From Nostoc sp. NMS4 (lineage in GTDB: Bacteria > Cyanobacteriota > Cyanobacteriia > Cyanobacteriales > Nostocaceae): a stretch of 36,499 nucleotides of DNA. Positions 3,351 through 29,430 of this stretch are shown here, piece after piece. The notes beneath the pieces were generated by a model, which saw nothing but the letters and a program-made list of their open reading frames with translations, ran no database searches and was not told the DNA's origin. The stretch is from NCBI RefSeq assembly GCF_017115095.1, contig NZ_JABXKI010000039.1:1-36499 (forward strand), in the 5' to 3' direction. Within the stretch, counting starts at the first letter, position 1, and each line of letters starts with the position of its first letter. The position numbers were made by a program, and so were the translations under genes.

Positions 3351-4358
3351 AAAATTAAATTCATTGGTCTAGTGAGTGATACCAATTTGAAAAAAGAATG
3401 CGACAAGTAGACCATTTGTAGAGACGCGATTCATCGCGTGTTTACCCAAGGATGTGTTGCAATCATGAATTGAATTGGTATGAGCAGAGAAATAAGGTAG
3501 ATCAGAATTCAGGAGTTGTGTACCTCACCAACTTGAAATCTGCTATATGTAATTAATTTTGTTGAGGTACTTGATACCTTTATGATTAAGATTGAGGATT
3601 TCAATCAAATTGAGGATCGTTGGCTGTGGGTTTGTAACAGCACCTTACTAAGCGATACCTTTGCCGAACATAAAACTAGGTCTAACTTTTGCCAAAACAG
3701 TTCAAGATAAGCTCCTTGCACAACATTTATGAGACATAAATTCAAAGCTATCCATACTGTGAATAAGGCAGAAGGGAGGAAGCACCAAGAAGATAGAAAG
3801 GTTGTAATGCAGTGAGAACACATCATATTTATTTACACTTTCAAATACAGAAAGTATTTTAAAAAGCAATAATATAATTATAAAAACAATAAATATACTG
3901 GCAATGGTCATTTTTTTTCAGCAAGTTTGTATTTTTTAGTTAATGGTCACTTCGACTACGCCCTTCCCTGCGGGACGCTACGCGTAGCTTGCTACGGCTA
4001 CGCTCAGGACAAGCTCAGTAGACTTCTTGCAAAAGTCCTTCTTTTTGCCCTTTTCTTTGCGCCTACTCTTCTCTAGGAGACGCTGCGCGAAGAAGATTGC
4101 TAAGAGCGATCGCACTTTTGCCTAAAACCAATCTAATCGCCAAAAAATATCTAAAATAATCGATATAGATATTTTTTTGCTTTGTATTTACCTGAAACTT
4201 AGATTAAGTATAAAGGTAATTCTCAGTAATTGTCGAGATGTTGTTTTCCAAAAAATGCAACCTTATAACGAAAAATCAGCCATTGTAATTTTGTTTTGTG
4301 GTTTTTCAAACTACATCCGAATCAGTAAACAAAAAATTTCACCTTCCTGCAAAACATT
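3351..4358. other. Gene-poor, repeat-rich intergenic region
   Basis: About 1 kb without a convincing gene. It holds an inverted-repeat element (3379-3481), a copy of a dispersed repeat (about 3516-3549) also found at 5237-5273, and GC-rich interspersed repeat modules around 3951-4020 and 4070-4115 of the kind scattered through Nostoc genomes (for example the palindrome CTACGCGTAG). The remaining DNA is AT-rich. Short open frames here have no family resemblance and no good start sites. Confidence 0.6.
3379..3481. repeat. MITE-like element with ATACCAATT inverted ends
   Basis: 103 bases bounded by ATACCAATT (3379-3387) and AATTGGTAT (3473-3481), with an internal palindromic segment (GACGCGATTCATCGCGT, near 3422-3438). 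The same inverted ends, with an unrelated interior, bound 26210-26325. No coding capacity. Confidence 0.65.
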
Positions 4359-4376
4359 AACCCTTGTAGTTATGTT
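4359..4376 (+). promoter_or_regulatory. Shared upstream motif, copy 1
   Basis: AACCCTTGTAGTTATGTT lies 93 bases before the start of the first DJ-1 gene. A closely similar sequence, AACCCTTGTAACTATATT, lies at 15903-15920 in the leader of the lti2-like gene (15/18 identical). Both are preceded at the same distance by CAAAA. This may be a promoter element or activator site; its function is inferred only from its recurrence. Confidence 0.4.
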
Positions 4377-4469
4377 TTACTCTCTCTAAACTTGTCAACA
4401 AAGACTTAAGAATAAGTCACATACATTCCAAATAAAGAATCTAGTGACCCTAAGAAATATTGAACCAAT

Positions 4470-5153
4470 ATGATACCTAGATCCCTTGGTGGGAAAAAAA
4501 TCGCCATTCTTCTAGAAAGTGAGTTCATTCCTGAAGAAATTGAAGCATATCAAAAACGCTTCTCAGAACTTCAAGCAACGGTACATCTGATGTCTAGGCT
4601 CTGGAATCAGCCGAGCGTTCGTTTTTTCAGTGATGAAGATACGGGCAATACACCTCGAACAATAGATGTAAACATTGATTTTCAAAACGTAGATGTTAAC
4701 GACTATGCGGCGGTAATTATGACCGCTAATTATACTAGCGTCCGTCTACGTTATTTTGAGCCACCAACAGGTCAGCCAATCGGTGCTGAACAAGTTCGCA
4801 CTTCACCGGCTGTACAATTTTATGCCAGCGCAATGGCAAATCCCAGGATTATTAAAGGCGCACTTTGTCACGGTCTTTGGATCATGACACCAATACCTGA
4901 ATTACTCAAAGACCGAAAAGTTATCTGCCATGAGGTTGTCCTTGCAGATATCATCAATGCTGGTGCAATTTATACAACATCACCTTCAGGTGTTGTGGTA
5001 GATGGCGACCTTGTTACCGGTCGCTCGAAACACGAAGTTGAACCATTCATTGATGCGATTACTGAACAAATCCAGCAATTATCTATTGCTACTAATCGTT
5101 TCTCAAGCAGAAGGGCTACCACATCTGTTTCAAGACTGAAAGTTGCAAGCTAA
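4470..5153 (+). CDS. DJ-1/PfpI family protein (Cys-His type)
   Basis: A 227-residue flavodoxin-like protein of the DJ-1/PfpI superfamily, whose members act as proteases, chaperones, glyoxalase III or deglycases. The nucleophile elbow is A131-L-C133-H134-G135, giving the usual Cys-His pair, with acidic residues E22/E23 in the N-terminal region where the family places its supporting Glu. A short Ser/Arg-rich tail follows residue 200. The ATG has no strong ribosome-binding site. It is the first gene of the DJ-1/ThDP/NTF2/VOC cluster and is separated from the second DJ-1 gene by a repeat insertion. The substrate is unknown; reactive-carbonyl chemistry is plausible from family and context. Confidence 0.85.
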   Translation: MIPRSLGGKKIAILLESEFIPEEIEAYQKRFSELQATVHLMSRLWNQPSVRFFSDEDTGNTPRTIDVNIDFQNVDVNDYAAVIMTANYTSVRLRYFEPPTGQPIGAEQVRTSPAVQFYASAMANPRIIKGALCHGLWIMTPIPELLKDRKVICHEVVLADIINAGAIYTTSPSGVVVDGDLVTGRSKHEVEPFIDAITEQIQQLSIATNRFSSRRATTSVSRLKVAS

Positions 5154-5155
5154 TT

Positions 5156-5273
5156 ACAGCAGAATTCAGAATTCAGAATTCAGAATTCAGAATTCAGAAT
5201 TCAGGAGTAAAACAGGCTTTATACGTGGGTAACAGACTTACCTTGTGTACCTCACCAACTTCAAATCTGCTGT
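5156..5273. repeat. Inverted-repeat element containing a heptamer tandem array
   Basis: Bounded by ACAGCAGA and TCTGCTGT. It contains six tandem copies of AGAATTC (5161-5202) and ends with a dispersed sequence (GTGTACCTCACCAACTT then AAATCTGCT) that recurs near 3518-3546 and, more diverged and inverted, near 26324-26350. The element sits between the two DJ-1 genes, three bases after the first stop codon. Confidence 0.7.
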
Positions 5274-5308
5274 ATTTCAAAACAAATTCATGACGAGGAG
5301 ACAATCTT

Positions 5309-6136
5309 GTGAAAAAAATTCTCATAATTTTATCGGAATATGGTTATTGGGGTGAGGAACTGGTAGGTCCCCTAGAAACTTTTGATGCTGCGGGTTATCA
5401 AGTTGATTTTGCAACTCCCACAGGAAAAAGACCAGTAGCGCTTCCTCCTAGTATGGACCCTACTTATATTGACCCACCTTTAGGTCGTCCAGTTGTCTCT
5501 CAAGAGATGGCGGAAAAAGTCAAGAATTTGGAAGATCCGAAAAATCCCCGACTGGACAACCCAATCATTCTCTCACAATGGTTGCCCGATCGCCCCTACT
5601 GGAGTGCAGAAAAATTCCTGCGGGAAATGGAAGCATATAACAATGCTGTAGACGAAATACAAAAGGATTTGGAACAATACGACGCTCTATTAATAGTCGG
5701 CGGTAGTGGGCCAATCGTTGATTTAGTCAATAACCATCGAGTTCATGACTTGATTCTCAGCTTTTACAAAAAAGACAAACCCATCGCCGCAGAATGCTAC
5801 GGTGTAACTTGTCTAGCCTTTGCTCGTGACTTAGCAGACCGCAAGAGTATTATTCGCGGTAAGCACGTTACAGGTCATTGCAAGGAATATGATTACAAAG
5901 ATGGCACAGGATTTATCGGCGCAGACATTAACATGGGGCCACCTCCTTATCCTTTAGAGTATATTCTCCATGATGCCACAGCCCCAGATGGAGCATATCA
6001 CGGTAATTTTGGCAAAGAAATCTCTGTAATTGTCGATTATCCCTTTGTTACAGGTCGGTCTACCGCAGACTCTTATACAACCGGTCAAAAGTTAGTAGAA
6101 GTTCTCGATAAAGGACTGAGGCGGTACGGATGGTAA
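5309..6136 (+). CDS. DJ-1/PfpI family protein, Hsp31-like (Cys-Tyr type)
   Basis: A 275-residue type 1 glutamine-amidotransferase-like protein closer to the larger Hsp31/glyoxalase III branch. Acidic residues E16/E17 lie in the N-terminal motif, a G-G-S-G-P loop at 131-135, and the nucleophile elbow is A161-E-C163-Y164-G165. The residue after the nucleophile is Tyr, not the His usual in Hsp31 and present in the neighbouring paralogue. The start is GTG, preceded by GAGGAG at good spacing. The stop overlaps the start of the ThDP enzyme gene by 7 bases, so the two are translationally coupled and probably work together. Exact reaction unknown. Confidence 0.85.
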   Translation: MKKILIILSEYGYWGEELVGPLETFDAAGYQVDFATPTGKRPVALPPSMDPTYIDPPLGRPVVSQEMAEKVKNLEDPKNPRLDNPIILSQWLPDRPYWSAEKFLREMEAYNNAVDEIQKDLEQYDALLIVGGSGPIVDLVNNHRVHDLILSFYKKDKPIAAECYGVTCLAFARDLADRKSIIRGKHVTGHCKEYDYKDGTGFIGADINMGPPPYPLEYILHDATAPDGAYHGNFGKEISVIVDYPFVTGRSTADSYTTGQKLVEVLDKGLRRYGW

Positions 6137-7878
6137 GCTTGACCAAAAAGAGCAGCGAAAAGCCTTTAATGGCTAACAGAAATGGTCGCTTTGCAATCAT
6201 TGAACAACTTCTGGCAGATGGTATAAACTATATGTTTGGCAACCCTGGCACTGTTGAGCAGGGGTTTCTAGATGCGTTAAAAGACTATTATCCAGAATTT
6301 GAATATATCTTTGCATTGCAAGAAACAATCGCAGTCGGTATGGGCGATGGCTATGCCCGCGCCACCAAAAAGCCGACTATTGTGCAACTCCATAGCGGAG
6401 TCGGTTTAGGAAATGGCATCGGGATGATTTATCAGGCGATGCGCGGTCATGCACCATTAGTTGTATTAGCTGGTGAAGCTGGTATCTGCTACGATGCGAT
6501 GGATGCTCAAATGGCAGCAGATTTGGTCAGTATGGCGAAACCTGTAACAAAATGGTCAACTAGAGTCGTTGATCCTGCTTCTTTGTTACGTGTGCTACGC
6601 CGAGCGATTAAAATAGCTGCTACGCCGCCGATGGGACCAGTGTTCGTCTCCCTACCGATGGATATCCTGGATGCTGTGAATTATGAAGAAGTTGTGCCGA
6701 CTTCTTTTCCAGGGACACGGGTTGCTCCTGAACCCGACCAACTGGCGACAGCAGCAAGTTTATTGGCTGCTGCCAAACATCCCCTGATTATTATGGGCGA
6801 TGGTGTAGCTTTTTCCGATGCTCAGGCGGAATTGACAAATGTTGCCGAACTCATCGGCGCGCAAGTTTGGGGCGCAGACTCATCGGAAGCGAATATGAGC
6901 GCCACACATCCTCTGTTTGGAGGGTTGTTGGGTCACATGTTCGGCGATGATAGCCGTCGGGTGACATCACAAGCAGACGTAATATTGATTACTGGAACCT
7001 ACGTTTTTCCAGAGGTATTCCCGGCGCTGTCTGGAGTTTTTGCTCCTTCAGCGAAAATCATTCACATTGACTTGAATACCTACGAAATAGCGAAGAATTT
7101 TCCGGTGGATCTGGGACTGCTTGGCGATCCCAAAACTAGTTTGAGTAAATTAAGTACTGTTCTTGAGTCAACTTTGACACCTGAACAGAAAAAAGAAGCT
7201 TTTGCTAGAGCTAGTCAGATAGCCGAGAATAAGAAGCGGGAATCTGCGGCTCGATTGGAAGCTGACAAGGCGGTTCGAGATGCAGTACCTCTGCACATGA
7301 CTCGTTTTGCTGAAGAATTAGCTGCCCAGTTGCCAGCAGATGCGATTATTTTCGATGAAGCCATTACCAATTCTCCCGAACTTTGTCGATATATACCACC
7401 GACAAAACTAGGAAACTATTACCAAACACGAGGCGGTTCGCTGGGTGTTGGGATTCCGGGAGCGATCGGCATTAAGCTGGCTAATCCAGATAAAACTGTG
7501 GTTGGGTTCACGGGTGACGGCGGGAGTATGTATACCATCCAAGCCCTTTGGACTGCTGCCCACCACAATATAGATGCTAAATTTGTCATCTGTAATAATC
7601 GCAGCTATCAAATTCTCAAGCTCAACATTCTCCACTATTGGGGCGAGCAGCAAATACCAGAACACGATTACCCGTCTTCTTTTAACCTCTGCGATCCTAA
7701 TATCGATTTTGCTGAATTAGCAAGGTCTTTAGGGGTTCAGGCTGTTCGGGTAGAGAACCCAGATCAAATTGCTCCAGCTATCCAAAAAGCATTGGATCAC
7801 AATGGACCATTTTTGATTGAGTTGGTACTGACAAACGAAATTGTCGGTACAAAGATTGGCGTTAAGTGTGGCCAATAG
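6130..7878 (+). CDS. Thiamine-diphosphate-dependent enzyme, benzoylformate decarboxylase-like
   Basis: A 582-residue enzyme of the acetolactate synthase/benzoylformate decarboxylase superfamily, acting on 2-keto acids by decarboxylation or carboligation. The three usual domains are present: catalytic Glu E65 (A-L-Q-E-T), an active-site-type H88 in L-H-S-G-V-G as in benzoylformate decarboxylase, a central domain, and the ThDP/Mg motif G462-D-G-G ending in N489-N490. The ATG at 6130 overlaps the upstream DJ-1 stop and has GAGG before it; a second ATG at 6169 is possible. No regulatory subunit gene is present, which argues against a biosynthetic acetolactate synthase. The substrate cannot be read from sequence. 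Confidence 0.88.
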   Translation: MVSLTKKSSEKPLMANRNGRFAIIEQLLADGINYMFGNPGTVEQGFLDALKDYYPEFEYIFALQETIAVGMGDGYARATKKPTIVQLHSGVGLGNGIGMIYQAMRGHAPLVVLAGEAGICYDAMDAQMAADLVSMAKPVTKWSTRVVDPASLLRVLRRAIKIAATPPMGPVFVSLPMDILDAVNYEEVVPTSFPGTRVAPEPDQLATAASLLAAAKHPLIIMGDGVAFSDAQAELTNVAELIGAQVWGADSSEANMSATHPLFGGLLGHMFGDDSRRVTSQADVILITGTYVFPEVFPALSGVFAPSAKIIHIDLNTYEIAKNFPVDLGLLGDPKTSLSKLSTVLESTLTPEQKKEAFARASQIAENKKRESAARLEADKAVRDAVPLHMTRFAEELAAQLPADAIIFDEAITNSPELCRYIPPTKLGNYYQTRGGSLGVGIPGAIGIKLANPDKTVVGFTGDGGSMYTIQALWTAAHHNIDAKFVICNNRSYQILKLNILHYWGEQQIPEHDYPSSFNLCDPNIDFAELARSLGVQAVRVENPDQIAPAIQKALDHNGPFLIELVLTNEIVGTKIGVKCGQ

Positions 7879-7913
7879 TAGACCATTTTACTGAATTAAA
7901 AGGAAGAAAAACA

Positions 7914-8363
7914 ATGACAGTAGCTAAAACAGCACCTTTAACACAATCAGAAATCAAGCAACTAGCAACTGACTGGTATTTGAAGCTAGATGTTCACGCT
8001 CCCCTTGAGGATTATACTTCTTTCCTGGCTGAAGAAGGTCTAGAAATGCGCTTTCCTGAAGCTACAGTTTATGGTTTTGATGGATTTAAAGGTTGGTATG
8101 AGCGGGTTATCGGGATTTTCTTTGATGAAGTTCATACTTTAAAGCAAGTCACCGTTACTCCTTCTGGAGACGAGGCGAGTGTTCAAGTCATCGTTAAGTG
8201 GGAAGCTAGCGTGTGGAATCCACCAGCAGCCAAAAGTCAACGGATTGTTTTAGATGCTTATCAAACTTGGATTATTAAGCGATCGCTTAATACTGGTAAG
8301 CCAGTAATTGCAACTTATATTGTCGATTCACTTAGCTACTATGAAGGGTCTGCTCAACTTTAA
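7914..8363 (+). CDS. NTF2/SnoaL-like small protein
   Basis: A 149-residue protein with the cone-shaped NTF2/SnoaL fold signature (W-Y-L-K-L-D near residue 22, F-K-G-W-Y near 64, a long C-terminal beta region). I took the ATG at 7914 because AAAGGA precedes it at good spacing; an upstream in-frame start overlapping the ThDP gene has none. Such proteins act as small isomerases, cyclases, dehydratases or ligand-binding subunits. It follows the ThDP enzyme by 35 bases. It is not close in sequence to the next two NTF2-like proteins. Function unknown. Confidence 0.75.
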   Translation: MTVAKTAPLTQSEIKQLATDWYLKLDVHAPLEDYTSFLAEEGLEMRFPEATVYGFDGFKGWYERVIGIFFDEVHTLKQVTVTPSGDEASVQVIVKWEASVWNPPAAKSQRIVLDAYQTWIIKRSLNTGKPVIATYIVDSLSYYEGSAQL

Positions 8364-8463
8364 TATTGCAGACATCGGCGAAAAAATCAAGTTTTGGGGC
8401 GCACATCACAACTTAATGGCGCTCCATACTTATAATTCCCTCACAATTACAGGAGATATGAAA

Positions 8464-8835
8464 ATGGCGGTTTCAACAATTTCACCCGGACGGCAATTTT
8501 TTGACAAGCATCTTGAGACTATTTCTGCTGGAAAAATCGATGAAATGGTAGATAGGGATTATGCAGAAGATGCTGTATTAATTACCTTTTTTAATGGGTT
8601 TAAAAGTACACCTGCACCGATTACAATTAATGGTCGGGAAAACATTAAGGCGTTTTTTCACGACTATCTAAAAACAATTGAATTTATTGATATAAAATCT
8701 CTGGATTTTACTGAAGCAGAAAATGCTATCTTTTTCCAAGCAAAGTTTAACTGTAAGCTTGGTTCTGTATCAGTTGGAGATGCTTGGACTATCCGTAATG
8801 GACAAATTGCTTATCATTTTGGTTTTTGGGTTTAA
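8464..8835 (+). CDS. NTF2/SnoaL-like small protein
   Basis: A 123-residue NTF2-like protein (F-F-D-K-H-L-E near the start, I-N-G-R-E-N-I-K-A-F-F in the middle, D-A-W-T-I-R-N-G-Q-I-A-Y-H-F near the end), typical of the SnoaL/ketosteroid-isomerase-like group. The ATG at 8464 is eight bases after AGGAG; another ATG at 8458 is in frame but too close to it. It shares the G-R-x-x-I/L-K-x-F-F and G-x-I-A-x-H-F patterns with the next gene, so the two are probably paralogues. Enzyme or binding role unknown. Confidence 0.75.
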   Translation: MAVSTISPGRQFFDKHLETISAGKIDEMVDRDYAEDAVLITFFNGFKSTPAPITINGRENIKAFFHDYLKTIEFIDIKSLDFTEAENAIFFQAKFNCKLGSVSVGDAWTIRNGQIAYHFGFWV

Positions 8836-8954
8836 TTTTTTTAAACGCAAAGTGGCGCTAAGGTAATGCAGAGGTACGCGGAGTTTAATTAAGGTATTTC
8901 TGTGTTTAGTTTCGATTTCGTTTTGGTCTGAGTACACTACAATAGAGGGTTAGT

Positions 8955-9776
8955 ATGAGTACACCAATTGAACAATTGATTGTATCTCCCATCAGTAAGC
9001 TTTATAAGGAACATATTGGTTTTATTAAGGCGAAGAATGTTGATGGTTTACTTAGTCAATATGCTGATGATGCTTTGTTGATTAGTACTTTAACTGAAGA
9101 CCGTCAGCCGCTTTATGTGCAGGGTCGTCAAGCATTAAAAGAGTTTTTTGAAGGTCGGATTTTCGGTTTGGAAGATTTTGAAATTAGGCTCAATCAATGG
9201 GCGGAAACTGAAAATACCCTGATGATGGTGGAGGAGCTCAAAACTACAAGTAAGACTGGTGAAGTCGGTACTGTGGAGTTCTACGATAACTGGTTTTTAC
9301 AAGATGGTAAAATCGCCATTCACTTTGCTGGTGTAATTCAATATCCAGATAAAACTTATGTAAATGCCGGAACGATTAAAGGCGAAGTACCTGCATCTCC
9401 ATTGGGCAATTTTTATCACGAGCATATCGGCTTTATTAAAGCGAAGAATGTTGATGGTTTGCTCAACCAATATACTGATGATGTTCTGCTGATTAGTACT
9501 TTAACTGAAAACCGTAAACCGCTTTATGTGCGTGGTCGTCAAGCGCTGAAACAGTTCTTTGAAAGTCGCATCTTCAGTTTAGAAGATTTTGAGGTGAAGC
9601 TTGACCAGTGGGCTGAAACTGAGAATACGCTCATGATAGTGGAAAGCCTGAAAACCAGAAGCGTCAATGGCGATGTTGGTGAGGTGAGTTTCTATGATAA
9701 CTGGGTGCTGCGCGATCGCAAAATTGCTGTTCACTTTGCTGGTGTAGTTCAGTATCCCGATGGTTCATACGCATAG
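8955..9776 (+). CDS. Tandem-duplicated NTF2/SnoaL-like protein
   Basis: A 273-residue protein made of two NTF2-like domains, residues about 11-137 and 147-273, that are roughly three quarters identical (94 of 127 by eye). Shared blocks include EHIGFIKAKNVDGLL, LLISTLTE and QWAETENTLM. NTF2-like proteins normally dimerise, so the fusion could make an obligate single-chain dimer. The start is ATG after a weak GAGGG. It sits 119 bases after the previous NTF2-like gene and 32 bases before the VOC gene. Reaction unknown. Confidence 0.82.
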   Translation: MSTPIEQLIVSPISKLYKEHIGFIKAKNVDGLLSQYADDALLISTLTEDRQPLYVQGRQALKEFFEGRIFGLEDFEIRLNQWAETENTLMMVEELKTTSKTGEVGTVEFYDNWFLQDGKIAIHFAGVIQYPDKTYVNAGTIKGEVPASPLGNFYHEHIGFIKAKNVDGLLNQYTDDVLLISTLTENRKPLYVRGRQALKQFFESRIFSLEDFEVKLDQWAETENTLMIVESLKTRSVNGDVGEVSFYDNWVLRDRKIAVHFAGVVQYPDGSYA

Positions 9777-9808
9777 TTCACTTTTTTCTGTTAGTAAGGA
9801 GTGAAGTA

Positions 9809-10246
9809 ATGGCTTTACTAAAAGTTTCTCAAATGGCAATGAGTTGCAAAGATCCGATTGCAACTGAAAAGTTCTACACGAAGTATTTCGGTTTTAAACG
9901 AGCAAGGGTTGCACCAATTGGCAATAATGAGCAAATTGTCTTTCTGAAGTTAGGTGATATGTACCTAGAACTCTTCCAAGCCAAGGAAGAAACCCCTGTC
10001 CCCTCAGCTACTCAAGATGGACCAACCTATCCCGCTTGGCGTCATTTTGGTTTCCAAGTTGATGACGTTGATGCTAAATTAGCTGAAATCGGCAAGGATG
10101 CCAAAGTAACCCTTGGCCCACTCAACTTTGATAGCTTTATTCCAGGGTGGCGCACCGTTTGGGTATCCGATCCAGATGGGAATATCGTTGAAATTAGCCA
10201 AGGATACGTCGATCAAGATAATCCACCAGCATTACAGGCAAACTAA
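9809..10246 (+). CDS. VOC/glyoxalase-fold protein
   Basis: A 145-residue vicinal-oxygen-chelate protein with two beta-alpha-beta-beta-beta modules. Residues at the usual metal-ligand places are Q8, E54 (Y-L-E-L-F), H79 (R-H-F-G-F) and E128 (I-V-E-I-S), and the C-terminal D-P-D-G-N signature is present. The family includes glyoxalase I, dioxygenases and antibiotic-binding proteins. AAGGAG precedes the ATG at good spacing. It is the last gene of the 4.5-10.2 kb cluster; together with two DJ-1 proteins it points to small-carbonyl chemistry, but that is inference. Confidence 0.85.
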   Translation: MALLKVSQMAMSCKDPIATEKFYTKYFGFKRARVAPIGNNEQIVFLKLGDMYLELFQAKEETPVPSATQDGPTYPAWRHFGFQVDDVDAKLAEIGKDAKVTLGPLNFDSFIPGWRTVWVSDPDGNIVEISQGYVDQDNPPALQAN

Positions 10247-10569: not shown

Positions 10570-10636
10570 TAATTTTGTTCAAAACTTAAATGGAATTGCT
10601 GTATAAAGTTAATTGACGATCGCCAGCAAGAAACTC

Positions 10637-11446
10637 ATGAATGCTATCACCAATTGGAAAACCCTGAACTGGACTGAATATGGCGCTGAGTTGGTGGGAA
10701 CTGCTTTTAATCTCTTGGTTGGATTCAGTATCATCACCTTCAACTTTGGCAAAGGCTTGCCTATGGAGCATCTCATCCCAGCTGTCAGCCCTCGTTTATT
10801 AATTAATGGTCTGATCTTTGCTGGAAGTGGTGCATTATTTAGTCTTTCACCTTTGGGAAAACTAAGTGGTTCACACCTCAACCCATGTTTATCATTGGCC
10901 TTCTGGATGCAAGGCAAAATGCACAAACAGGACTTAATTGGCTATATCTTTGGTCAATTTCTCGGCGCAATTCTTGGGACATCTTTAGCATTAGCTTTGT
11001 GGCGAAATTACCTGATCAGCGTCAATTATTGTATCACTACACCTGCAATAGGTTATCCATTGTGGTATGTATTTCTGGCTGAAGTTTTCATGACGTTTCT
11101 GTTAGTGCTATCTATCTTTATCTTCTTGAGTCATCATCATTTATTGCGCTGGACACCTTTAATGGTATGGCTGCTGGTGGCAAGTATGGTGTGGTTGGGA
11201 GCGCCTATTTCTGGTACTAGTTTAAATACAGCACGCAGCATTGGCCCCGCTTTATTAGCATGGTCTTGGCAAAACCAATGGCTTTATTGTATTGCACCCC
11301 CATTAGGGGCATTAGTTGCTGTAAAAGTTTTTGACCTGATAACTATGGGTGAACGCGAAGTTTTGACAGGCAAACTTTTTCATGTTCCCAACTATCGTTG
11401 TATTTTTAAAAATGTTAAAGTACCACATCTGCCAAAACATGGGTAA
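10637..11446 (+). CDS. Divergent MIP family (aquaporin-like) channel
   Basis: A 269-residue integral membrane protein of the major intrinsic protein family, with six predicted helices and two half-helix loops. The first pore motif is N82-P-C84 in S-G-S-H-L-N-P-C and the second is N197-T-A199 followed by R200 (L-N-T-A-R-S-I-G-P-A). Both differ from canonical NPA, while the selectivity-filter Arg is kept. It would let water or small neutral solutes cross the membrane; the substrate is uncertain. I chose ATG 10637; a TTG at 10613 would add eight residues. Its position beside sugar and glucan enzymes fits a role in osmotic adjustment. Confidence 0.88.
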   Translation: MNAITNWKTLNWTEYGAELVGTAFNLLVGFSIITFNFGKGLPMEHLIPAVSPRLLINGLIFAGSGALFSLSPLGKLSGSHLNPCLSLAFWMQGKMHKQDLIGYIFGQFLGAILGTSLALALWRNYLISVNYCITTPAIGYPLWYVFLAEVFMTFLLVLSIFIFLSHHHLLRWTPLMVWLLVASMVWLGAPISGTSLNTARSIGPALLAWSWQNQWLYCIAPPLGALVAVKVFDLITMGEREVLTGKLFHVPNYRCIFKNVKVPHLPKHG

Positions 11447-11781: not shown

Positions 11782-12555
11782 ATGAAGAAACTAGAAGGTA
11801 AGGTAGCTTTAGTAACAGGTAGTAGCAGTGGAATTGGTCAAGCTATTGCTATATATCTCGCTGAACAAGGTGCAGATGTAGTCATAGATTACCGTTCTCA
11901 TCCCGAAGGCGCTCAAGAAACTCTCTCGAAAGTAGAAGCAGTTGGTAGCAAAGGTTTAACTGTTAAAGCTGATTTAAGTATAATTAGCGATATTCGTCAA
12001 CTTATAGACCAAGGTATTCAACACTTTGGCAAGTTAGACATTCTGGTGAACAATGCCGGCATCGACGGTCGAAATGCTGACTTCTGGGACATCACCGAAG
12101 CCGACTATGATGCAGTAATCGATCTCAACCTCAAAGGGACATTTTTCGCCACTCAAGCGATCGTCCAGCACTTCATCGACACCAAGCGAAAAGGTAAAAT
12201 CATCAATATTAGCTCCACCCATGAAGAAATAGCATTTCCCCACTTTACTGGCTACTGTGTCAGCAAGGGCGGGGTCAAAATGATGATGCGTAACTTAGCA
12301 GTTGAACTTGGTCCGTTGGGAATTACAATTAATAACGTGGCTCCTGGAGCAATTGAGACACCAATCAATACTAAGCTGTTAAACGATCCCGAAAAATTAA
12401 CAGCCCTGTTGAAAAATATTCCTTTGGGTCGTTTAGGTAAGCCAGAGGATATCGCGCCTATAGTTGCGTTCTTAGCCTCTGCTGATGCTGACTATATTAC
12501 AGGTGCAACCTTGTATGTAGATGGAGGATTGAGCCGGAACTATCACGAGCAATAG
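11782..12555 (+). CDS. Short-chain dehydrogenase, glucose 1-dehydrogenase-like
   Basis: A 257-residue classical SDR that oxidises or reduces an alcohol or sugar with NAD(P). The cofactor loop is T12-G-S-S-S-G-I-G19, the stabilising motif N90-N-A-G93, and the catalytic residues S144/S145, Y158 and K162. The S-S-T-H-E segment before the active Tyr and the C-terminal V-D-G-G-L-S are typical of the glucose 1-dehydrogenase group. AGAAGGAG lies just before the ATG. It precedes the GH63-type glucosidase, whose product could be glucose, so substrate coupling is plausible but unproven. Confidence 0.88.
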   Translation: MKKLEGKVALVTGSSSGIGQAIAIYLAEQGADVVIDYRSHPEGAQETLSKVEAVGSKGLTVKADLSIISDIRQLIDQGIQHFGKLDILVNNAGIDGRNADFWDITEADYDAVIDLNLKGTFFATQAIVQHFIDTKRKGKIINISSTHEEIAFPHFTGYCVSKGGVKMMMRNLAVELGPLGITINNVAPGAIETPINTKLLNDPEKLTALLKNIPLGRLGKPEDIAPIVAFLASADADYITGATLYVDGGLSRNYHEQ

Positions 12556-12853: not shown

Positions 12854-15514
12854 ATGACCCAAGAAGAAGTAAGATTAGTAGCAGACCGCGATCGCACCGC
12901 TTATTGGAAACGATGGGGTTCCTATTTAAGTGAGCGCCAGTGGGGAACAGTCCGGGAAGACTATAGCCCTAATGGTACTGCCTGGGAATTCTTTCCTCAC
13001 GATCACGCCCGCTCCCGCGCCTATCGCTGGGGAGAAGATGGGATTGGGGGAATTTCTGATAATCATCAGCGACTATGTTTTGCGATCGCTCTTTGGAATG
13101 GTGAAGATGCAATTCTCAAAGAAAGGCTTTTCGGTCTGACAGGGAATGAGGGGAATCACGGAGAAGATGTTAAAGAATACTACTTCTACTTGGATAACAC
13201 CCCGACTCACTCCTATATGAAATATCTTTATAAATATCCCCAAGCAGCTTTTCCATACAGTCAACTGGTTGAAGAAAATCGGCGCAGAGGTCGCCAGAGA
13301 TCGGAGTTTGAATTAATTGACACAGGTATATTTGACCAAGACCGCTATTTTGATGTATTCGTTGAGTATGCCAAGGCTTCACCCGACGATATTTTAATTG
13401 AAATCACTGTGATTAACCGAGGGACAGAAGCAAAAACACTGCATTTGTTACCAACGCTTTGGTTTCGCAACACCTGGTCTTGGACTGATCATCAAGAAGA
13501 AAAGCCGTGGTTAAAAATTAGCCAATCTAACTCTGATCTGGGCACCATCGAAGCTTATCACCCTTCTTTAAAAACTCGATGGCTCTATTGTAATGGAACT
13601 CCAGAACTACTATTTACAGAAAATGAGACTAATAATCAAAGATTATTTGGGGTTAACAATGCTTCGCCATACGTTAAAGATGGCATAAATAATTATCTAG
13701 TGAATGGGGAAAAAACGGCTGTTAATCCCAATCGAATTGGTACTAAGTTCGCCGCTCGTTACCAATTAGAAATCGGTGCAGGTGAAACTAAGACAGTACG
13801 ATTGCGATTAAGTGACGCGCAAAATTTAATTGCACCATTCGGGACTGAATTTGATACAGTTTGGCAAGAGCGCCAACGCGAAGCAGATGAATTTTATCAG
13901 CGAATTTGTCCGTCGCCAATGTTAGCAGACAGCCGCAATGTGCAGCGACAGGCATTTGCTGGGATGTTATGGAGCAAACAATTTTACTATTATGTAGCCG
14001 ACCAATGGCTAAAAGGCGATCCGGCTGGCCCGACACCGCCAGCATCCCGGCTCAATGGCAGAAACCATGAATGGTTTCATTTATTTAACGACGATGTACT
14101 TTCCATGCCCGATAAATGGGAATATCCTTGGTTTGCGGCTTGGGATTTAGCTTTTCATGTAATTCCCCTCTCCATGATTGACCCAGATTTTGCCAAGCTG
14201 CAACTGAGCCGTTTGACACGAGAATGGTATATGCATCCAAACGGCCAACTACCGGCTTATGAATGGGCTTTTGGTGATGTTAATCCACCCGTTCATGCTT
14301 GGGCAGCATGGCAAGTTTATCAGATTGAGCAGAAAATCTATGGTCGTGCTGATAAAAAATTTCTCGAAAGTGTTTTTCAAAAATTACTCCTAAACTTTAC
14401 TTGGTGGGTTAACCGGAAAGATTTTGAGGGCAAAAATATCTTTCAGGGTGGCTTTTTAGGTATGGATAACATTGGCGTTTTCGATCGCAGTGTTCAACTA
14501 CCAACTGGTGGATATTTGCAACAAGCAGATGGTACAAGTTGGATGGCGATGTATTCTCTGAATATGCTGACGATCGCTCTAGAGTTAGCAAAGGAAAATT
14601 CTGTCTACGAAGACATCGCCAGCAAGTTTTTCGAGCATTTCTTGTACATTGCTGATGCCATGAATGGCGTTGGTGCAGCCGAAATAGCGCTATGGGATGA
14701 AACTGATGGTTTTTACTACGATGCCCTCCATTTACCGAATAATCATCAATTCCCGATGAAAGTGCGATCGCTCGTGGGGTTAATTCCATTATGTGCGGTG
14801 GGCATTTTAGAACCAGAAACCTTAGAGCAACTTCCAGGCTTTAGAGAACGGACGCAATGGTTTCTGAAAAATCGCCCCGATCTGACCCGAAATATTGCTT
14901 GTATGCAGAAAGAAGGGATTGGTGAACGCCGACTGCTAGCGATCGCTTATCCAGATAAACTCCGTTGCATTCTAGAAAAAATGTTGGATGCAACAGAATT
15001 TTTCAGCCCTTATGGTATTCGCTCTGTTTCTAAAGTTCATGAGTCCCATCCTTACGCTTTGACCGTAGATGGTCGGGAATATCGAGTAGATTATGAACCA
15101 TCTGAATCTAGCACAGGAATGTTTGGCGGTAATTCCAACTGGCGCGGGCCAATTTGGTTTCCGATTAATTATCTACTGCTAGAGTCCCTACAAAAATTCT
15201 ATCGCTACTTCGGCGACGATTTTAAAGTTGAGTGTCCCACCGGTTCAGGCCAAATGATGACGCTTAAGGAAGTATCAATTGAATTAGCTCAAAGGCTGAT
15301 CGAAATTTTTCTGGCGGATGATTCTGGTAGACGACCTTTTTATGGTGGAACAGAAAAATTCCAAACTGACCCAAATTGGCGCGACCTGATTCTATTCAAT
15401 GAATACTTTCATGGAGATAATGGCGCTGGTATTGGTGCTAGCCATCAAACTGGTTGGACAGGTTTAATCGCCAAATTAATCCAGCAATGTGCAGAACAAG
15501 TGTTGTCAGATTAA
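12854..15514 (+). CDS. GH63/MGH1-type glucosidase
   Basis: An 886-residue glycoside hydrolase with an N-terminal beta-sandwich region ([12 protein letters not shown] at residues 32-43 from this start) and a C-terminal (alpha/alpha)6 barrel with the motifs [10 protein letters not shown] (candidate acid Asp) and N-W-R-G-P-I-W-F-P. This is the architecture of GH63-like alpha-glucosidases and glucosylglycerate-type hydrolases. I start it at ATG 12854, where family-like sequence begins; an in-frame GTG at 12650 would read through the repeat element. No export signal is seen, so it probably acts in the cytoplasm on a glucan, glucoside or compatible solute. A hairpin terminator follows. Confidence 0.85.
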
Positions 15515-16149: not shown

Positions 16150-18270
16150 ATGACTTTAACTACAGATAGACATCAGGTTGAACTAGCAATACCTGATTAT
16201 CAATTAGAATCAGGATGCTCACATCCTTTCGGTGCAATCCCAAACAAAGATGGAGTAAACTTTTCCATCTTTTCAGAACACGCTACTTCTGTCGAACTCT
16301 TATTGTTCGATCAAGATGATTCCCCCCTACCGACACATACTATTCAGTTAGACCCAAAAATTAATAAAACCTTCCACTTTTGGCATATTTATGTGAGAGG
16401 GTTAAAACCAGGCGCTCACTACGCTTATCGAGTTAATGGTAATTCTGATTTACACCAAGCAGGACACCGCTTTAATAAAAATAAAGTATTGCTTGACCCT
16501 TATGCTAGAGGAAACACTAACGCTCTTTGGCAGCGTAGCGATGCTTTAGGGTCAAAAGACAATGTAACTACTTCAATGCGTAGTGTAGTTATAGATATAT
16601 CCGATTATGATTGGGAAGGCGATCGCCCGCTCAACCGATCGATGAGTGACACCATCATTTATGAGGTACACGTTGGCGGATTTACCAGATCGTCCTCTTC
16701 TGGCTGCAAATACCCCGGCACTTTTTCGGGAATTATCGAAAAAATTCCTTACTTGAAAGAGTTAGGAATCACAGCTATTGAACTACTACCAATATTTGAC
16801 TTTGACGAAAAGAACCTTCTCCGAGAAGTCAACGGCAAACAACTAAAAGACTACTGGGGATACAACCCACACAGTTACTTTGCTCCAGAAGCTTCCTATT
16901 GTGCTTTTCCTGATGTTGGCAATCATATCAGAGAGTTTCGAGATTTGGTCAAGGCTTTACACAAAGAAGGGATTGAAGTAATTCTCGATGTAGTCTTTAA
17001 CCACACCGATGAAGGCAACCATGAAGGCCCAACCATCAGCTTCAAAGGCCTTTTTAATGATATCTTTTATCACCTAGTACATTGGGATAAGCAGTACTAC
17101 ATGGACTACTCCGGGTGTGGCAATACCGTCAATTGCAACCATCCCATAGTAGAAAAGTTAATTGTAGATTGCCTGGAATTTTGGGTGAAAGAGATGCACG
17201 TCGATGGTTTCCGCTTTGATGAAGCCTCTATTTTATCTCGCAGCCAAGACGGAGTACCAATGATCCATCCGCCAGTGATTTGGCACATTGAAACATCCGA
17301 AACACTAGCTGACACCAAAATCATTGCCGAGGCTTGGGATGCTGGTGGACTTTATCAAATTGGTGACTTCCCTGGATATCGTTGGGCAGAATGGAACGGA
17401 CGTTTTCGAGACGATATTCGGCGCTTTGTCAAAGGAGATGCCGGAATAGTTGGGGCAGTTGCTTGGCGCATTGGTGGAAGTTCCGATCTTTACCAATCAA
17501 GCAGACATTTACCGATTAACAGTATCAACTTCATTAGTTGTCATGATGGGTTTACCCTCAATGATTTAGTTTCCTACAACCACAAACACAATGAAGCCAA
17601 TGGTGAAAACAATCGGGATGGCATCAATGACAATTTAAGTTGGAATTGTGGTGTTGAAGGAGAAACTGACAATCCACAAATTGATGGGTTACGTCGGCGA
17701 CAGATTAAGAATTTTGCAGCCATTCTCATGCTTTCTCAAGGTGTACCAATGATTGTGGCTGGTGATGAAATCAGACGTACTCAAAAAGGTAACAACAACG
17801 CTTACTGCCAAGATAACGAAATTAGTTGGTTTGATTGGGATCTTGCTCAGAAGAATGCTGATATTTTCAGGTTCTTCAAACTGATAATTAATTTCCGTAA
17901 GTGTTACTGCCATTCTGCTTTACGCCGGAGTAATTTTTTCACCGGTGAAGTTAACGAGCGCGGTTTAGCAGATATTGCTTGGCATGGCTGCAAGTTGTTT
18001 AAACCAGGTTGGCACGACTTTCATGCCAGAGTCCTGGCATTTACTCTCGGCGGCTTTGAAGGAGAAGCAGATATTCACGTCATGCTCAATATGTACTGGG
18101 AGGATCTAGAGTTTGAAATTCCTTCTATTAAAAATAGAAAATGGTACAGAGTCGTAGATACTGCGCTTCCTTCTCCGATAGATATTGCAGAGCCAGGGGA
18201 AGAAACTGTAGTTTCAGATAATACCTATTCTGTTAAAGAGCGTAGCGTTGTTGTGCTGATTTCTAAATAG
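16150..18270 (+). CDS. lti2: GH13 isoamylase/GlgX-type debranching enzyme, Lti2-like
   Basis: A 706-residue alpha-amylase-family enzyme with an N-terminal CBM48-like domain (about 25-130) and a GH13 barrel. All four conserved regions are present: D280-V-V-F-N-H285, G-F-R-F-D357 (nucleophile), I-I-A-E394-A-W (acid/base) and S-C-H465-D466. This organisation fits isoamylase or glycogen debranching enzymes that cleave alpha-1,6 branches. The gene lti2 of Anabaena variabilis, induced by cold and related to alpha-amylases, and its osmotically induced homologue in Anabaena 7120 (controlled by OrrA) are the likely relatives; the symbol is my inference from family and neighbours. The leader carries two candidate regulatory sites. 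It is followed after 37 bases by the AGE-STAS gene. Confidence 0.85.
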   Translation: MTLTTDRHQVELAIPDYQLESGCSHPFGAIPNKDGVNFSIFSEHATSVELLLFDQDDSPLPTHTIQLDPKINKTFHFWHIYVRGLKPGAHYAYRVNGNSDLHQAGHRFNKNKVLLDPYARGNTNALWQRSDALGSKDNVTTSMRSVVIDISDYDWEGDRPLNRSMSDTIIYEVHVGGFTRSSSSGCKYPGTFSGIIEKIPYLKELGITAIELLPIFDFDEKNLLREVNGKQLKDYWGYNPHSYFAPEASYCAFPDVGNHIREFRDLVKALHKEGIEVILDVVFNHTDEGNHEGPTISFKGLFNDIFYHLVHWDKQYYMDYSGCGNTVNCNHPIVEKLIVDCLEFWVKEMHVDGFRFDEASILSRSQDGVPMIHPPVIWHIETSETLADTKIIAEAWDAGGLYQIGDFPGYRWAEWNGRFRDDIRRFVKGDAGIVGAVAWRIGGSSDLYQSSRHLPINSINFISCHDGFTLNDLVSYNHKHNEANGENNRDGINDNLSWNCGVEGETDNPQIDGLRRRQIKNFAAILMLSQGVPMIVAGDEIRRTQKGNNNAYCQDNEISWFDWDLAQKNADIFRFFKLIINFRKCYCHSALRRSNFFTGEVNERGLADIAWHGCKLFKPGWHDFHARVLAFTLGGFEGEADIHVMLNMYWEDLEFEIPSIKNRKWYRVVDTALPSPIDIAEPGEETVVSDNTYSVKERSVVVLISK

Positions 18271-18307: not shown

Positions 18308-20479
18308 ATGAGTAATTTAGGCTTCTCATTTTCGGATTTGATTGCTGGGTATGTTACCGCTTTTGATTCAAGTCAGGGAGAGCATGGTACTTTTAATCTC
18401 AAAACCTCAGATGGGAGAAAATTTGAAGTAGCATTGACCTCAATGACTTATGCTGAACTAGTACGCAATTTAGATGAGCCTTTCTTTGATTGCACTAGCC
18501 AAATAAGTTCAATGCTCATTCCTAATTGCTATCTTTTCGCCTATGGCATTTTTTATCCTGAAGCAGGTGAGCATAAATTTGAAGCTAAACACATAGTTTT
18601 TCTCGGTAGAACAGAAAACGAATATCTTTTTGAAAGACCAGATTGGTGGGTCAAGCAGATCCGAAGCCTTGGCGATTTTTACCTCAAAGCTCAGTTTGAA
18701 GATGGCGATATTGATTATCGGAAATATCGCACAGGTATCGGTTTAGTTGGTTCCAAAGAAGATAGCACTCGTCAGGAAACTGACACCATTTCTCGTCTAG
18801 TTTACGGTTTTGCCACAGCCTACATGATGACTGGAGACGATCGCTATCTTGAAGCTGCGGAAAAAGGCACTGAATACCTCCGCCAACACATGCGTTTTCT
18901 CGATGAAGGCGAAGGAATTTGCTATTGGTATCATGCTGTTGATGTCAAACCAGGTGGTAGCGAACAGAAAATATTCTCCTCAGAATTTGGGGATGATTAT
19001 GACGCTATTCCAGCTTACGAACAAATTTATGCCCTGGCTGGCCCCACTCAAACCTATCGGATCACGGGCGATCCACGGATCATCAAAGATATCGACTTGA
19101 CGATTAATCTGTTTAACAAGTATTTCTTGGACAAGACAGAGAAAGGCGGATTTTTCTCCCACATCGATCCGATTACTCTCAGCCCCCATTCTCACACTCT
19201 AGGTCACAATCGCGCCAAGAAAAATTGGAACTCCGTAGGCGATCATGCCCCAGCTTATTTGATCAATCTTTGGCTAGCGACTGGCAAAGAAGAATACGCA
19301 AATTTCCTTGAGTACACCTTCGACACCATTGAAAAGCGGTTCCCAGATTACGACCATAGCCCATTTGTTCAAGAGCGTTTTTATGAAGACTGGACTCATG
19401 ATACAACTTGGGGATGGCAGCAGAATCGAGCAGTTGTCGGTCATAACCTGAAAATTGCTTGGAACTTAATGCGAATGAACCACTTAAAGCCAAAAGAAAA
19501 CTATGTGGCTTTGGCAGAAAAGATTGCCGAAATCATGCCAGCAGTCGGTAGCGACCAACAGCGTGGGGGGTGGTACGATGTGGTGGAACGCACCTTAAAA
19601 CCAGGGCAAGAGGTACACCGCTTTGTCTGGCATAACCGGAAAGCTTGGTGGCAGCAAGAACAAGCCATCTTAGCTTACTTGATCTTGAATGGCTCACTTG
19701 ATAAACCTGAGTATCAACGCCAAGCCCGTGAAGCGGCAGCTTTTTATAATGCTTGGTTCCTCGATTACGTGGCTGGCGGTATCTACTTCAATGTTCTCTC
19801 AAATGGGATTCCCTACTTGTTAGGAACAGAACGAGGCAAGGGAAGCCACTCAATGAGCGGTTATCACTCCTTTGAATTAGCTTACTTAGCTTGCGTTTAT
19901 ACGAATCTGTTGATTACCAAACAGCCAATGGATTTGTACTTTAAACCAAAGCCAGGTGGCTTTAAGGACAACATTCTGCGAGTCGCACCAGATATCTTAC
20001 CACCCGGTAGTGTGCGGATTGGCGATGTATGGATCAATGGGCAAAGGTATGCCGATTTTGATGCTGCAAACTTGACAGTCAAACTGCCTGTTACTCAAGA
20101 TGATGTGAAAGTTAGAGTCAGACTTCTGCCGACTCAAATATCTTTCGATGCAACTTTGTTAGAAGTCAGTAATGGTACTGCCAAAATCTCCTTAACTGGT
20201 TTATTGGATGCTAATGGTGTGGTACATTTTCAGGAAGCGATCGCTAAAGCTACAGCACAGCCAATCAATCGTCTAGTCTTACTACTACAAGACCTGGAAT
20301 GTATTACTACTGCTGGTCTACGGTCTTTGATTTTCGCTAAACAAAAACTGGGTTCTGATGTTGAACTCTACATGGTTGGCGCACCGGAGAACGTGAAACA
20401 ATTCCTGATGATGAGTGCATTTTGTGACAGTGTAACTGTGTTAGATAAGTATGAAACTACTGAAATGGCTACTGTGTAG
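18308..20479 (+). CDS. AGE-type (alpha/alpha)6 barrel protein fused to a STAS domain
   Basis: A 723-residue three-part protein. Residues 1-110 form a short beta-rich domain. Residues about 115-540 look like an N-acylglucosamine 2-epimerase/cellobiose 2-epimerase barrel, with conserved-type His and aromatic positions (V-V-G-H379-N-L-K, A-W-W-Q-Q-E 446-451, S-G-Y-H520). Residues about 615-715 resemble a STAS domain (R-L-V-L-L-L-Q-D-L-E, then I-T-T-A-G-L-R at 666-672), where anti-sigma-factor antagonists carry the phosphorylated Ser; here Thr668 is at that place. The function may be sugar epimerisation with regulatory control. It lies 37 bases after the GH13 gene and is probably cotranscribed with it. 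Confidence 0.78.
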   Translation: MSNLGFSFSDLIAGYVTAFDSSQGEHGTFNLKTSDGRKFEVALTSMTYAELVRNLDEPFFDCTSQISSMLIPNCYLFAYGIFYPEAGEHKFEAKHIVFLGRTENEYLFERPDWWVKQIRSLGDFYLKAQFEDGDIDYRKYRTGIGLVGSKEDSTRQETDTISRLVYGFATAYMMTGDDRYLEAAEKGTEYLRQHMRFLDEGEGICYWYHAVDVKPGGSEQKIFSSEFGDDYDAIPAYEQIYALAGPTQTYRITGDPRIIKDIDLTINLFNKYFLDKTEKGGFFSHIDPITLSPHSHTLGHNRAKKNWNSVGDHAPAYLINLWLATGKEEYANFLEYTFDTIEKRFPDYDHSPFVQERFYEDWTHDTTWGWQQNRAVVGHNLKIAWNLMRMNHLKPKENYVALAEKIAEIMPAVGSDQQRGGWYDVVERTLKPGQEVHRFVWHNRKAWWQQEQAILAYLILNGSLDKPEYQRQAREAAAFYNAWFLDYVAGGIYFNVLSNGIPYLLGTERGKGSHSMSGYHSFELAYLACVYTNLLITKQPMDLYFKPKPGGFKDNILRVAPDILPPGSVRIGDVWINGQRYADFDAANLTVKLPVTQDDVKVRVRLLPTQISFDATLLEVSNGTAKISLTGLLDANGVVHFQEAIAKATAQPINRLVLLLQDLECITTAGLRSLIFAKQKLGSDVELYMVGAPENVKQFLMMSAFCDSVTVLDKYETTEMATV

Positions 20480-23968: not shown

Positions 23969-23984
23969 TTAAGGAGTGTATGGC

Positions 23985-28759: not shown

Positions 28760-29026
28760 TTACGGAAAGTACCTGTAAATATCTTTTCTGTGCAATACCC
28801 TCACAAAAATTACTACGCTCTCTGATACTGTAATTCCAACTCTGTAGTCTCCAATTCTGATGCGATAATAGTTGCCATCAGCTTGGAGTTTTTTAATATT
28901 ACTTATATTTGCTAGATTTTCGGCATTTTCTACTTCTTCAATCACCGCCTTAATCTTTTTAAATAAGGCTTCACCCCGAATATTATTTAAATCTTTCTCA
29001 AAGTTTTTTCTGAACTCTATATTCAT
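28760..29026 (-). CDS. RelE/ParE-type toxin
   Basis: An 88-residue protein of the RelE/ParE superfamily, which cleaves mRNA on the ribosome or inhibits gyrase. Typical features are F-E-K-D-L-N near residue 8, Y-Y-R-I-R-I-G-D-Y-R-V-G at about 54-65 and the C-terminal R-V-L-H-R-K-D-I-Y-R-Y-F. The basic residues and terminal Tyr resemble catalytic residues of RelE more than ParE. Its ATG overlaps the antitoxin stop by four bases, so the two are translated together. Likely active as no frame damage is seen. Confidence 0.9.
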   Translation of the reverse strand: MNIEFRKNFEKDLNNIRGEALFKKIKAVIEEVENAENLANISNIKKLQADGNYYRIRIGDYRVGITVSESVVIFVRVLHRKDIYRYFP

Positions 29027-29430
29027 CCTTTAGTTTCCAAAATTTGGAAAATAGCTTCGCGGCTGACAGTTTCACTATTTTCACCTTCTTTAATAGCTCT
29101 TTCTAAAGCTATATCTTCCATAATTTCTGCGAATAAATCATAAAGTACTTCTTTTTGCTCTTGAAGTACCTCAACAATTGCTGTTTTCAACAGTTCTTTA
29201 TTAGTCTTAGCTTTAACACGTTGTAAAGCATCTAAAAGACGTGCTGCATTCTCAGGTGATTGAAACAAGTATGCTGTCTCCATAATGCTATTAAGTTCCG
29301 CAGTAGGAATTACGGATACACTTTCTGCACCTTCACGATTAATAACTACAGATTCACGACTGTTAATTACCTCTTCGTAAATTTTGTCAAAATTATTGCA
29401 AGCTTCGTTGTAATTTTTTTGGTTAGACAT
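29023..29430 (-). CDS. YefM/Phd-type antitoxin with C-terminal extension
   Basis: A 135-residue antitoxin. Residues 1-73 resemble YefM/Phd (N-N-F-D-K-I-Y-E-E-V, V-V-I-N-R-E-G-A-E-S-V-S-V-I), the DNA-binding and toxin-binding part. Residues about 75-135 form a second helical module ending E-D-I-A-L-E-R-A-I-K-E-G, of a type that often occurs alone as an antitoxin next to RelE-like toxins in cyanobacteria. CAGGAA precedes the ATG. It is encoded directly before, and overlaps by four bases, the RelE-type toxin. Such antitoxins usually repress their own promoter. Confidence 0.85.
   Translation of the reverse strand: MSNQKNYNEACNNFDKIYEEVINSRESVVINREGAESVSVIPTAELNSIMETAYLFQSPENAARLLDALQRVKAKTNKELLKTAIVEVLQEQKEVLYDLFAEIMEDIALERAIKEGENSETVSREAIFQILETKG

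Follow-up and report, generated by a model that had tools for sequence, protein, structure and literature searches.

Which pathway, if any, is encoded by a compact run of enzyme genes at positions 4470-10246 of a contig (NZ_JABXKI010000039.1) from Nostoc sp. NMS4? The window, that is, the whole stretch of DNA analysed here, comprises 36,499 nucleotides of a 7.58-Mb draft genome (GCF_017115095.1). A preliminary description had read the run as seven co-oriented genes for two DJ-1 proteins, a thiamine diphosphate (ThDP) enzyme, three NTF2-like proteins and a VOC protein. All seven were confirmed as intact genes of one orientation, and Pfam and NCBIfam scans, together with the predicted fold of the first NTF2-like protein (N1), bear out these family calls, the ThDP enzyme having three domains and the NTF2-like proteins being of SnoaL/NTF2 type. 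Comparison with relatives shows that the second DJ-1 gene (DJ1b) and the ThDP gene form a fixed core, around which the seven-gene set is a local variant. We tentatively read the surrounding island as a horizontally moving, stress-regulated metabolic pathway that may draw on alpha-glucan to make a small protective metabolite. The seven genes are as follows.

4470-5153, + strand: DJ1a, DJ-1/PfpI family (Pfam DJ-1_PfpI, 1.5e-9); travels with AGE and GlgX
5309-6136, + strand: DJ1b, ThiJ/DJ-1-like (ThiJ_like PF17124, 1e-21, plus DJ-1_PfpI); near-constant partner of the ThDP gene
6130-7878, + strand: ThDP enzyme, benzoylformate-decarboxylase-like, with all three TPP-enzyme domains; start at 6130 or 6172
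7914-8363, + strand: N1, NTF2/SnoaL fold by model; no Pfam family at the default cut-off
8458-8835, + strand: N2, SnoaL-like (SnoaL_2, 2.2e-5; 25.4 bits, just below the cut-off of 27)
8955-9776, + strand: N3, tandem duplicate SnoaL-like domains (SnoaL_2, 6.8e-18, two stretches)
9809-10246, + strand: VOC protein (Pfam Glyoxalase, 2.5e-8) with a glyoxalase-I-type metal-ligand set

A scan of a genome collection returned at least 543 confirmed ThDP relatives among at least 592 candidate stretches. The best 80 loci, together with plasmid and further genome loci, gave 101 ThDP loci after removal of seven duplicates (L036, L043, L056, L071, L086, L111 and L118). As controls we used 17 acetolactate-synthase-like loci from nine of the same cyanobacterial genomes; an eighteenth (G007:C33) was left out, and two of the control stretches are short. 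Counts are of profile matches without an overlap filter, and they are lower bounds, as many loci end at contig ends. DJ1b lies directly 5' of the ThDP gene in 90 of the 97 loci with at least 0.9 kb of upstream DNA (the others being L046, L061, L065, L069, L077, L094 and L095) and anywhere in the locus in 97/101, compared to one of the 17 controls; under a strict filter, with which long false frames hid true genes, these values are 78/97 and 91/101. NTF2-like genes are found in 87/101 loci, with up to ten frames in a single locus, followed by N1 (68/101), DJ1a (65/101), VOC (54/101), GMC oxidoreductases (50/101), GlgX (49/101) and AGE (49/101), each absent from all 17 controls and each significant. 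Alpha-glucan genes taken together (64/101 loci) and oxidoreductases of any kind (69/101) are likewise found in none of the controls.

The gene set is thus not scattered in relatives, and its co-occurrence is far above chance: DJ1a, DJ1b, NTF2 and VOC genes accompany the ThDP gene in 41/101 loci and 0/17 controls, and the exact seven-gene order recurs in 12/101 loci. Around the DJ1b-ThDP pair, NTF2, VOC, GMC, EthD, SDR and molybdenum-hydroxylase genes are swapped between loci. The seven-gene order of L039 is interrupted after the ThDP gene by an EthD-Nif11-Nif11-GMC block, and that of L048 by an NHLP gene after N1; Nostoc and Gemmobacter plasmids carry EthD together with two Nif11-type and two GMC genes as a block. 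Muconolactone-isomerase-like genes occur in 4/101 loci and CoxL-type genes in 8/101.

Co-presence was also assessed in 59 genomes, that of strain NMS4 included, by a test independent of neighbourhood. The ThDP gene is present in 10 of the 59 and DJ1b in exactly the same 10 (Fisher p 1.6e-11, not corrected for descent); N1 is found in eight genomes, all among these 10. AGE has a wider distribution, occurring in 25/59 genomes: all 10 that are ThDP-positive and 15 of the 49 that are ThDP-negative. Neighbourhoods were examined in 13 of those 15 (G027 and G034 were left out), and DJ1a, AGE and GlgX are clustered in all 13, with separate STAS genes in eight loci and thioredoxin-reductase-like (TrxR) plus kinase genes in the other five. 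Because AGE is also found in these ThDP-negative genomes, DJ1a-AGE-GlgX is a module independent of ThDP.

Treating the seven genes as a unit therefore drew the boundaries too narrowly, since genes up to 25160 of the window belong to the neighbourhood in relatives, and the links to glycogen debranching, to an AGE epimerase and to partner-switch regulators were missed. The remark that no transporter is present is correct inside the seven genes and fails just beyond them, where an aquaporin-family gene comes directly after VOC. The following genes share the same neighbourhood in relatives.

10613-11446, + strand: MIP aquaporin-family channel; next after VOC in Nostocaceae relatives
11782-12555, + strand: SDR oxidoreductase, glucose-1-dehydrogenase-like (Pfam, NCBIfam, relatives)
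12854-15514, + strand: MGH1/GH63-like glucosidase; the open reading frame runs from 12650, and relatives of 886 amino acids indicate a start at 12854
16150-18270, + strand: GlgX-type glycogen debranching enzyme (Pfam)
18308-20479, + strand: AGE-family epimerase/isomerase with an N-terminal beta domain and a C-terminal STAS domain
20847-22508, + strand: response regulator fused to a thioredoxin-reductase-like domain (Pfam); near AGE in relatives
22511-23968, + strand: histidine kinase with a cyclic-nucleotide-binding domain (Pfam), 2 bases downstream of the preceding gene
23976-25160, + strand: LtrA-family protein (Pfam); in 11/101 loci, nine of them outside cyanobacteria

The island consequently has three parts: the near-constant DJ1b-ThDP pair; the independent alpha-glucan module, containing DJ1a, the AGE epimerase, GlgX, and STAS plus regulators of the partner-switch or two-component kind; and tailoring modules, exchangeable between loci, drawn from the NTF2/SnoaL, VOC, EthD, GMC, SDR and molybdenum-hydroxylase families. 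STAS is fused to AGE or encoded beside it, depending on the locus.

EthD occurs in 15/59 genomes, all AGE-positive (p 8e-8, uncorrected), including 11 of the 15 that have AGE and lack ThDP (the other four have no EthD); no EthD domain was found in the NMS4 genome itself. In the four ThDP-positive genomes that have EthD, its open frames are 236-257 amino acids long, whereas in the eleven ThDP-negative genomes they span 308-1183, mostly above 500. Nine of the proteins from ThDP-negative genomes were scanned: seven carry SnoaL, joined in five of these by a glyoxalase/VOC domain and in four by a CMD domain, and two have no SnoaL, VOC or CMD. CMD genes also adjoin DJ1a-AGE-GlgX in ThDP-lacking genomes. 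Since the folds that are separate near ThDP are joined in one chain near AGE-GlgX, a shared function is supported. Giant cyanobacterial CMD-EthD-glyoxalase-SnoaL proteins are encoded near DJ1a-AGE-GlgX at L147:139-3675, L142:2093-5401, L145:14012-16540 and L146:16134-19223.

The distribution of the ThDP gene is patchy. It was found in 11/386 cyanobacterial genomes, our strain included (E 1e-120), and in 14 of 72,556 plasmid records (Streptomyces 8, Nostoc 3, Deinococcus 1, Runella 1 and Gemmobacter 1). Among the matches listed, ThDP loci come from about eleven phyla: Cyanobacteriota, Chloroflexota, Actinomycetota, Deinococcota, Bacteroidota, Planctomycetota, Myxococcota, Thermodesulfobacteriota, Pseudomonadota, Acidobacteriota and Bacillota. 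Many of these loci are from metagenome bins, and an Acetivibrio record is titled as contamination-suspect. The nearest relatives among the matches listed are from Nostoc and Anabaena strains. In a quick tree of the 101 loci, from which L068 and L098 were left out for want of an alignment motif, the window enzyme falls in a clade of 24 cyanobacterial rows, itself within a supported 60-row group holding 36 rows of other phyla. A second cyanobacterial group (26 rows, weak support) stands apart from these 60, and genome G049 carries both types. The pattern fits horizontal transfer, although long branches and the quick method call for caution.

What the core enzymes might do was approached through their closest families. 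Among NCBIfam models and PDB chains, the ThDP protein matches benzoylformate decarboxylase (MdlC, BFDC) best, reaching 337.1 bits against a cut-off of 493 for the BFDC equivalog NF005485; BbmA, another ThDP enzyme, is also among the PDB matches. The active-site Glu and first His (Glu47 and His70 of BFDC) are kept as E65 and H88, while the active-site Ser (Ser26) is replaced by Thr41; T41, E65 and H88 are invariant in 14/14 aligned sequences. No mandelate-pathway gene, as accompanies BFDC, was seen among the window proteins scanned. As for the start of the ThDP gene, the 7-base overlap with DJ1b noted in the preliminary description exists (6130-6136) if translation begins at the ATG at 6130, and vanishes if it begins at 6172. 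The equivalent of 6172 is an ATG start in several more distant relatives (L024, L025, L029, L031 and L033), and the annotated start in the Nostoc sp. C052 record lies one codon before it.

Two other identities for the ThDP enzyme were rejected. Acetolactate synthase scores 266.8 bits against a cut-off of 538 (TIGR00118) and its partner genes are absent among the window proteins scanned; true acetolactate synthase genes were found separately in nine of ten genomes. The notion that the NMS4 genome lacks a housekeeping acetolactate synthase (search at E 1e-100) was dismissed on finding partial matches at contig ends: the gene appears to be split over the ends of contigs C365, C268 and C225, an assembly effect. 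The scytonemin cluster (ScyA, ScyB, ScyC) also places a ThDP enzyme, ScyA, in a cyanobacterial stress-metabolism setting. A scytonemin identity was rejected on scores and on the absence of partner genes, in line with the earlier remark that none is present: the leucine-dehydrogenase-like family of ScyB is not among the Pfam matches of the window proteins scanned. Here the partner is DJ1b and the hosts span many phyla, and it is by partner genes and spread, not by direct comparison with ScyA, that the window enzyme is set apart.

Both DJ-1 proteins retain the catalytic Glu, Cys and His of DJ-1/Hsp31-type glyoxalase III. In DJ1b, E17, C163 and H190 are kept in 86/86 sequences, but Tyr rather than His follows the Cys and the gene is tied to a ThDP enzyme; in DJ1a, E16, C133 and H134 are kept in 59/59 and H154 in 57/59. 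Against curated equivalogs, DJ1b scores 28.3 bits for HchA (cut-off 365) and 52.9 for PfpI (cut-off 139), and DJ1a 52.5 for PfpI (cut-off 139). The VOC protein shares the metal ligands of glyoxalase I (Q/H8 46/46, E54 46/46, H79 45/46 and E128 46/46), although it falls far below the curated YaeR model. The earlier suggestion that these families handle small carbonyl compounds is accordingly upheld in part, in that complete catalytic or metal-ligand sets in DJ1b, DJ1a and VOC fit alpha-oxoaldehyde chemistry.

N1 and its relatives give weak SnoaL matches below the Pfam default cut-off. The N1 model (36 sequences; pLDDT 93.5, pTM 0.85) has the NTF2 cone fold and matches LinA (PDB 3s5c) in Foldseek with a TM score of 0.73, scytalone-dehydratase-like chains giving about 0.73. 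H74 is invariant and D26 at least 90% conserved in 38 rows; their spacing may be that of the LinA Asp-His pair. Ribosome-site-like bases and the lengths of relatives favour a start at 7914 over 7866 for N1 and at 8458 over 8308 for N2. The halves of N3 are identical at 93/125 positions. Beside a ThDP cluster in another locus, a SnoaL/NTF2 domain is fused to ankyrin repeats (L026:4186-5646, by Pfam), and L023:3607-5067 is a relative of this fusion by likeness only.

The AGE protein has an (alpha/alpha)6 barrel (best Foldseek match 8h1n, E 2.8e-18), the nearest fold being that of the AGE-superfamily 2-epimerases (glucose and cellobiose 2-epimerase, mannose isomerase). H313, H379 and H520, which would include the catalytic His residues, are invariant in 33 rows. 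The protein differs in its extra N-terminal beta domain, its C-terminal or adjacent STAS, an invariant Lys382 in a GHNxK motif, and an identity of only 13-20% to the listed solved AGE-family chains. The regulators resemble the partner-switching RsbU/V/W system in that genes for STAS, a HATPase anti-sigma protein and a SpoIIE phosphatase lie one after another next to GlgX and AGE. Two differences are that no sigma factor was seen in the annotated stretches read and that the window, like other cyanobacteria, has STAS as part of a metabolic enzyme.

Upstream of DJ1a, two elements stand out.

4249-4297 and 4330-4378, + strand: two imperfect 49-nucleotide direct repeats, 71% alike
4403-4418, + strand: inverted repeat GACTTA-4 bases-TAAGTC, 51 bases 5' of the DJ1a start; candidate operator

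The second copy of the direct repeat and the stretch from it to the DJ1a start codon are kept in Nostocales relatives. The inverted repeat can be made out in 14 of 16 aligned upstream regions, four of which show a single mismatch and a few shortened arms; L022 has a changed version and L048 lacks it. The region 4249-4418 is possibly a control region; scans of the DNA for promoters and terminators yielded no more than in shuffled sequence. The 155-base gap between DJ1a and DJ1b holds a tandem repeat of the unit CAGAATT at 5160-5208, the gap being about 37 bases in several Nostoc relatives, e.g. L018 and L019.

Taken together, these features lead us to favour, still tentatively, the pathway outlined at the outset. 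Regulators would signal drying, salt or cold, upon which GlgX and AGE would release and re-shape (isomerise) glycogen sugar. Starting from a 2-keto acid or aldehyde, the ThDP enzyme would make or use an alpha-oxo or acyloin compound, and DJ1b would act on the same reactive intermediate on the substrate or product side. A small protective metabolite would then be completed by NTF2-fold dehydratases or cyclases together with VOC and an oxidoreductase. The cyanobacterial lti2 may be a relative of GlgX. On a more doubtful footing, the island could exemplify a mobile modular class across some eleven phyla, in which a partner-switch-controlled GlgX/STAS-AGE/DJ1a sugar module feeds exchangeable sets of small-domain enzymes. 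These sets would be either ThDP-DJ1b with separate NTF2/VOC/EthD proteins or a giant CMD-EthD-VOC-SnoaL polypeptide, and the product would be a family of protective small molecules.

Several observations weigh against the favoured pathway. No alpha-glucan gene lies within the DNA covered in 37/101 loci, so the sugar link is not obligatory. Val296, invariant in 14/14 aligned sequences, stands in the ThDP enzyme at the position of His281 in native BFDC (the two aligned chains also have no His there); because this His is missing, the nearest family is no guide to the reaction. The link to stress comes from regulator families and hosts only, no consistent exporter was noticed among the loci, and the NTF2, EthD and VOC folds are each promiscuous in their catalysis. 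Of the 14 plasmids, 12 are non-mobilizable and two conjugative by MOB-suite. Taken alone, EthD (20/101 versus 0/17, p 0.07), STAS/SpoIIE/anti-sigma (18/101 versus 0/17, p 0.07), LtrA (11/101 versus 0/17, p 0.36) and Nif11/NHLP (9/101 versus 0/17, p 0.35) are not significant, and all p-values of the neighbourhood comparison are indicative, because shared descent links the loci and every control is cyanobacterial, so that independence is overstated.

The preliminary description had offered two guesses, detoxification of reactive carbonyls or a small biosynthetic pathway with NTF2-like cyclases, and we lean to the second. The first, though unlikely, stays the main rival and a serious one: two DJ-1 proteins and VOC, as glyoxalases of types III and I, would join a ThDP carboligase in clearing methylglyoxal, glyoxal or aldehydes produced by glycogen mobilisation under drying or salt stress. 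The complete E-C-H sets in both DJ-1 families, the complete VOC ligand set, the neighbouring GlgX/AGE and the presence of oxidoreductases in 69/101 loci all suit it, but DJ1b, DJ1a and VOC score far below the named glyoxalase and deglycase models, and ten NTF2-like frames in a locus, CMD-EthD-VOC-SnoaL fusions and presence in 11/386 cyanobacterial genomes would be odd for a housekeeping function. We prefer biosynthesis because the tailoring genes are swapped as modules and fused, because NTF2 frames number up to ten and because the island is patchy. That the island serves to degrade an aromatic or ether compound from plants or soil is decidedly improbable. The BFDC, EthD, muconolactone-isomerase-like, CMD, GMC and molybdenum-hydroxylase families are known from such catabolism, the nearest solved ThDP relatives are BFDCs, and EthD, muconolactone-isomerase-like and CoxL-type genes, CMD beside DJ1a-AGE-GlgX and plasmid carriage point the same way. 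The recurring partners are, however, glycogen enzymes and regulators, and the annotated or recurring genes read yielded no ring-cleaving dioxygenase, no mandelate enzyme and no uptake system, the unassigned frames having been partly scanned.

Less probable again is a regulatory island, in which the small folds would be ligand-binding sensors or carriers feeding a STAS/SpoIIE/anti-sigma switch. Such switch genes in 18/101 loci, separate STAS genes in eight of the 13 AGE loci of ThDP-lacking genomes and the NTF2-ankyrin fusion are in keeping with it, yet catalytic residues are kept in DJ1b, DJ1a, VOC, AGE and partly in the ThDP enzyme, and oxidoreductases are frequent. Much gene exchange between loci and carriage in 14 plasmid records could also reflect a stress or plasmid island of unrelated protective genes with no common pathway; the exact co-presence of DJ1b and ThDP in 10/59 genomes, the gene order kept in 12/101 loci and the domain fusions make this very unlikely. 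Anti-phage defence was rejected, as none of eight proteins matched PADLOC models, and so was a phage origin: DJ1b and the ThDP protein each match one PHROG family of unknown function, and the three NTF2-like proteins match none.

In Nostoc and Gemmobacter clusters, pairs of Nif11 leader-type genes adjoin EthD and GMC genes at L030:2038-6673, L031:15413-19956 and L039:11962-15371, and a Nif11-type gene is also present in Streptacidiphilus (L103). The pairs possibly link to a peptide product. Further along the window, a Phd/YefM-type antitoxin-like gene (29023-29430) has no recognised toxin beside it, and its neighbour (30125-30613) has no Pfam match.

The preliminary description knew of no described pathway with this set, and we found no paper on it in the open literature, most subscription journals lying outside that search; in PMC12157317, the terms thiamine, glgX, DJ-1 and aquaporin are absent. 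The novelty of the gene set is therefore provisional. A conserved pair that crosses many phyla, is carried on plasmids and keeps company with glycogen enzymes and stress-type switches points to a widespread metabolite or detoxification route. It may offer a way into the coupling of stored sugar to protection in cyanobacteria and in the Deinococcus and Streptomyces relatives, and it places in context families that are usually annotated merely as NTF2, EthD, DJ-1 or AGE.

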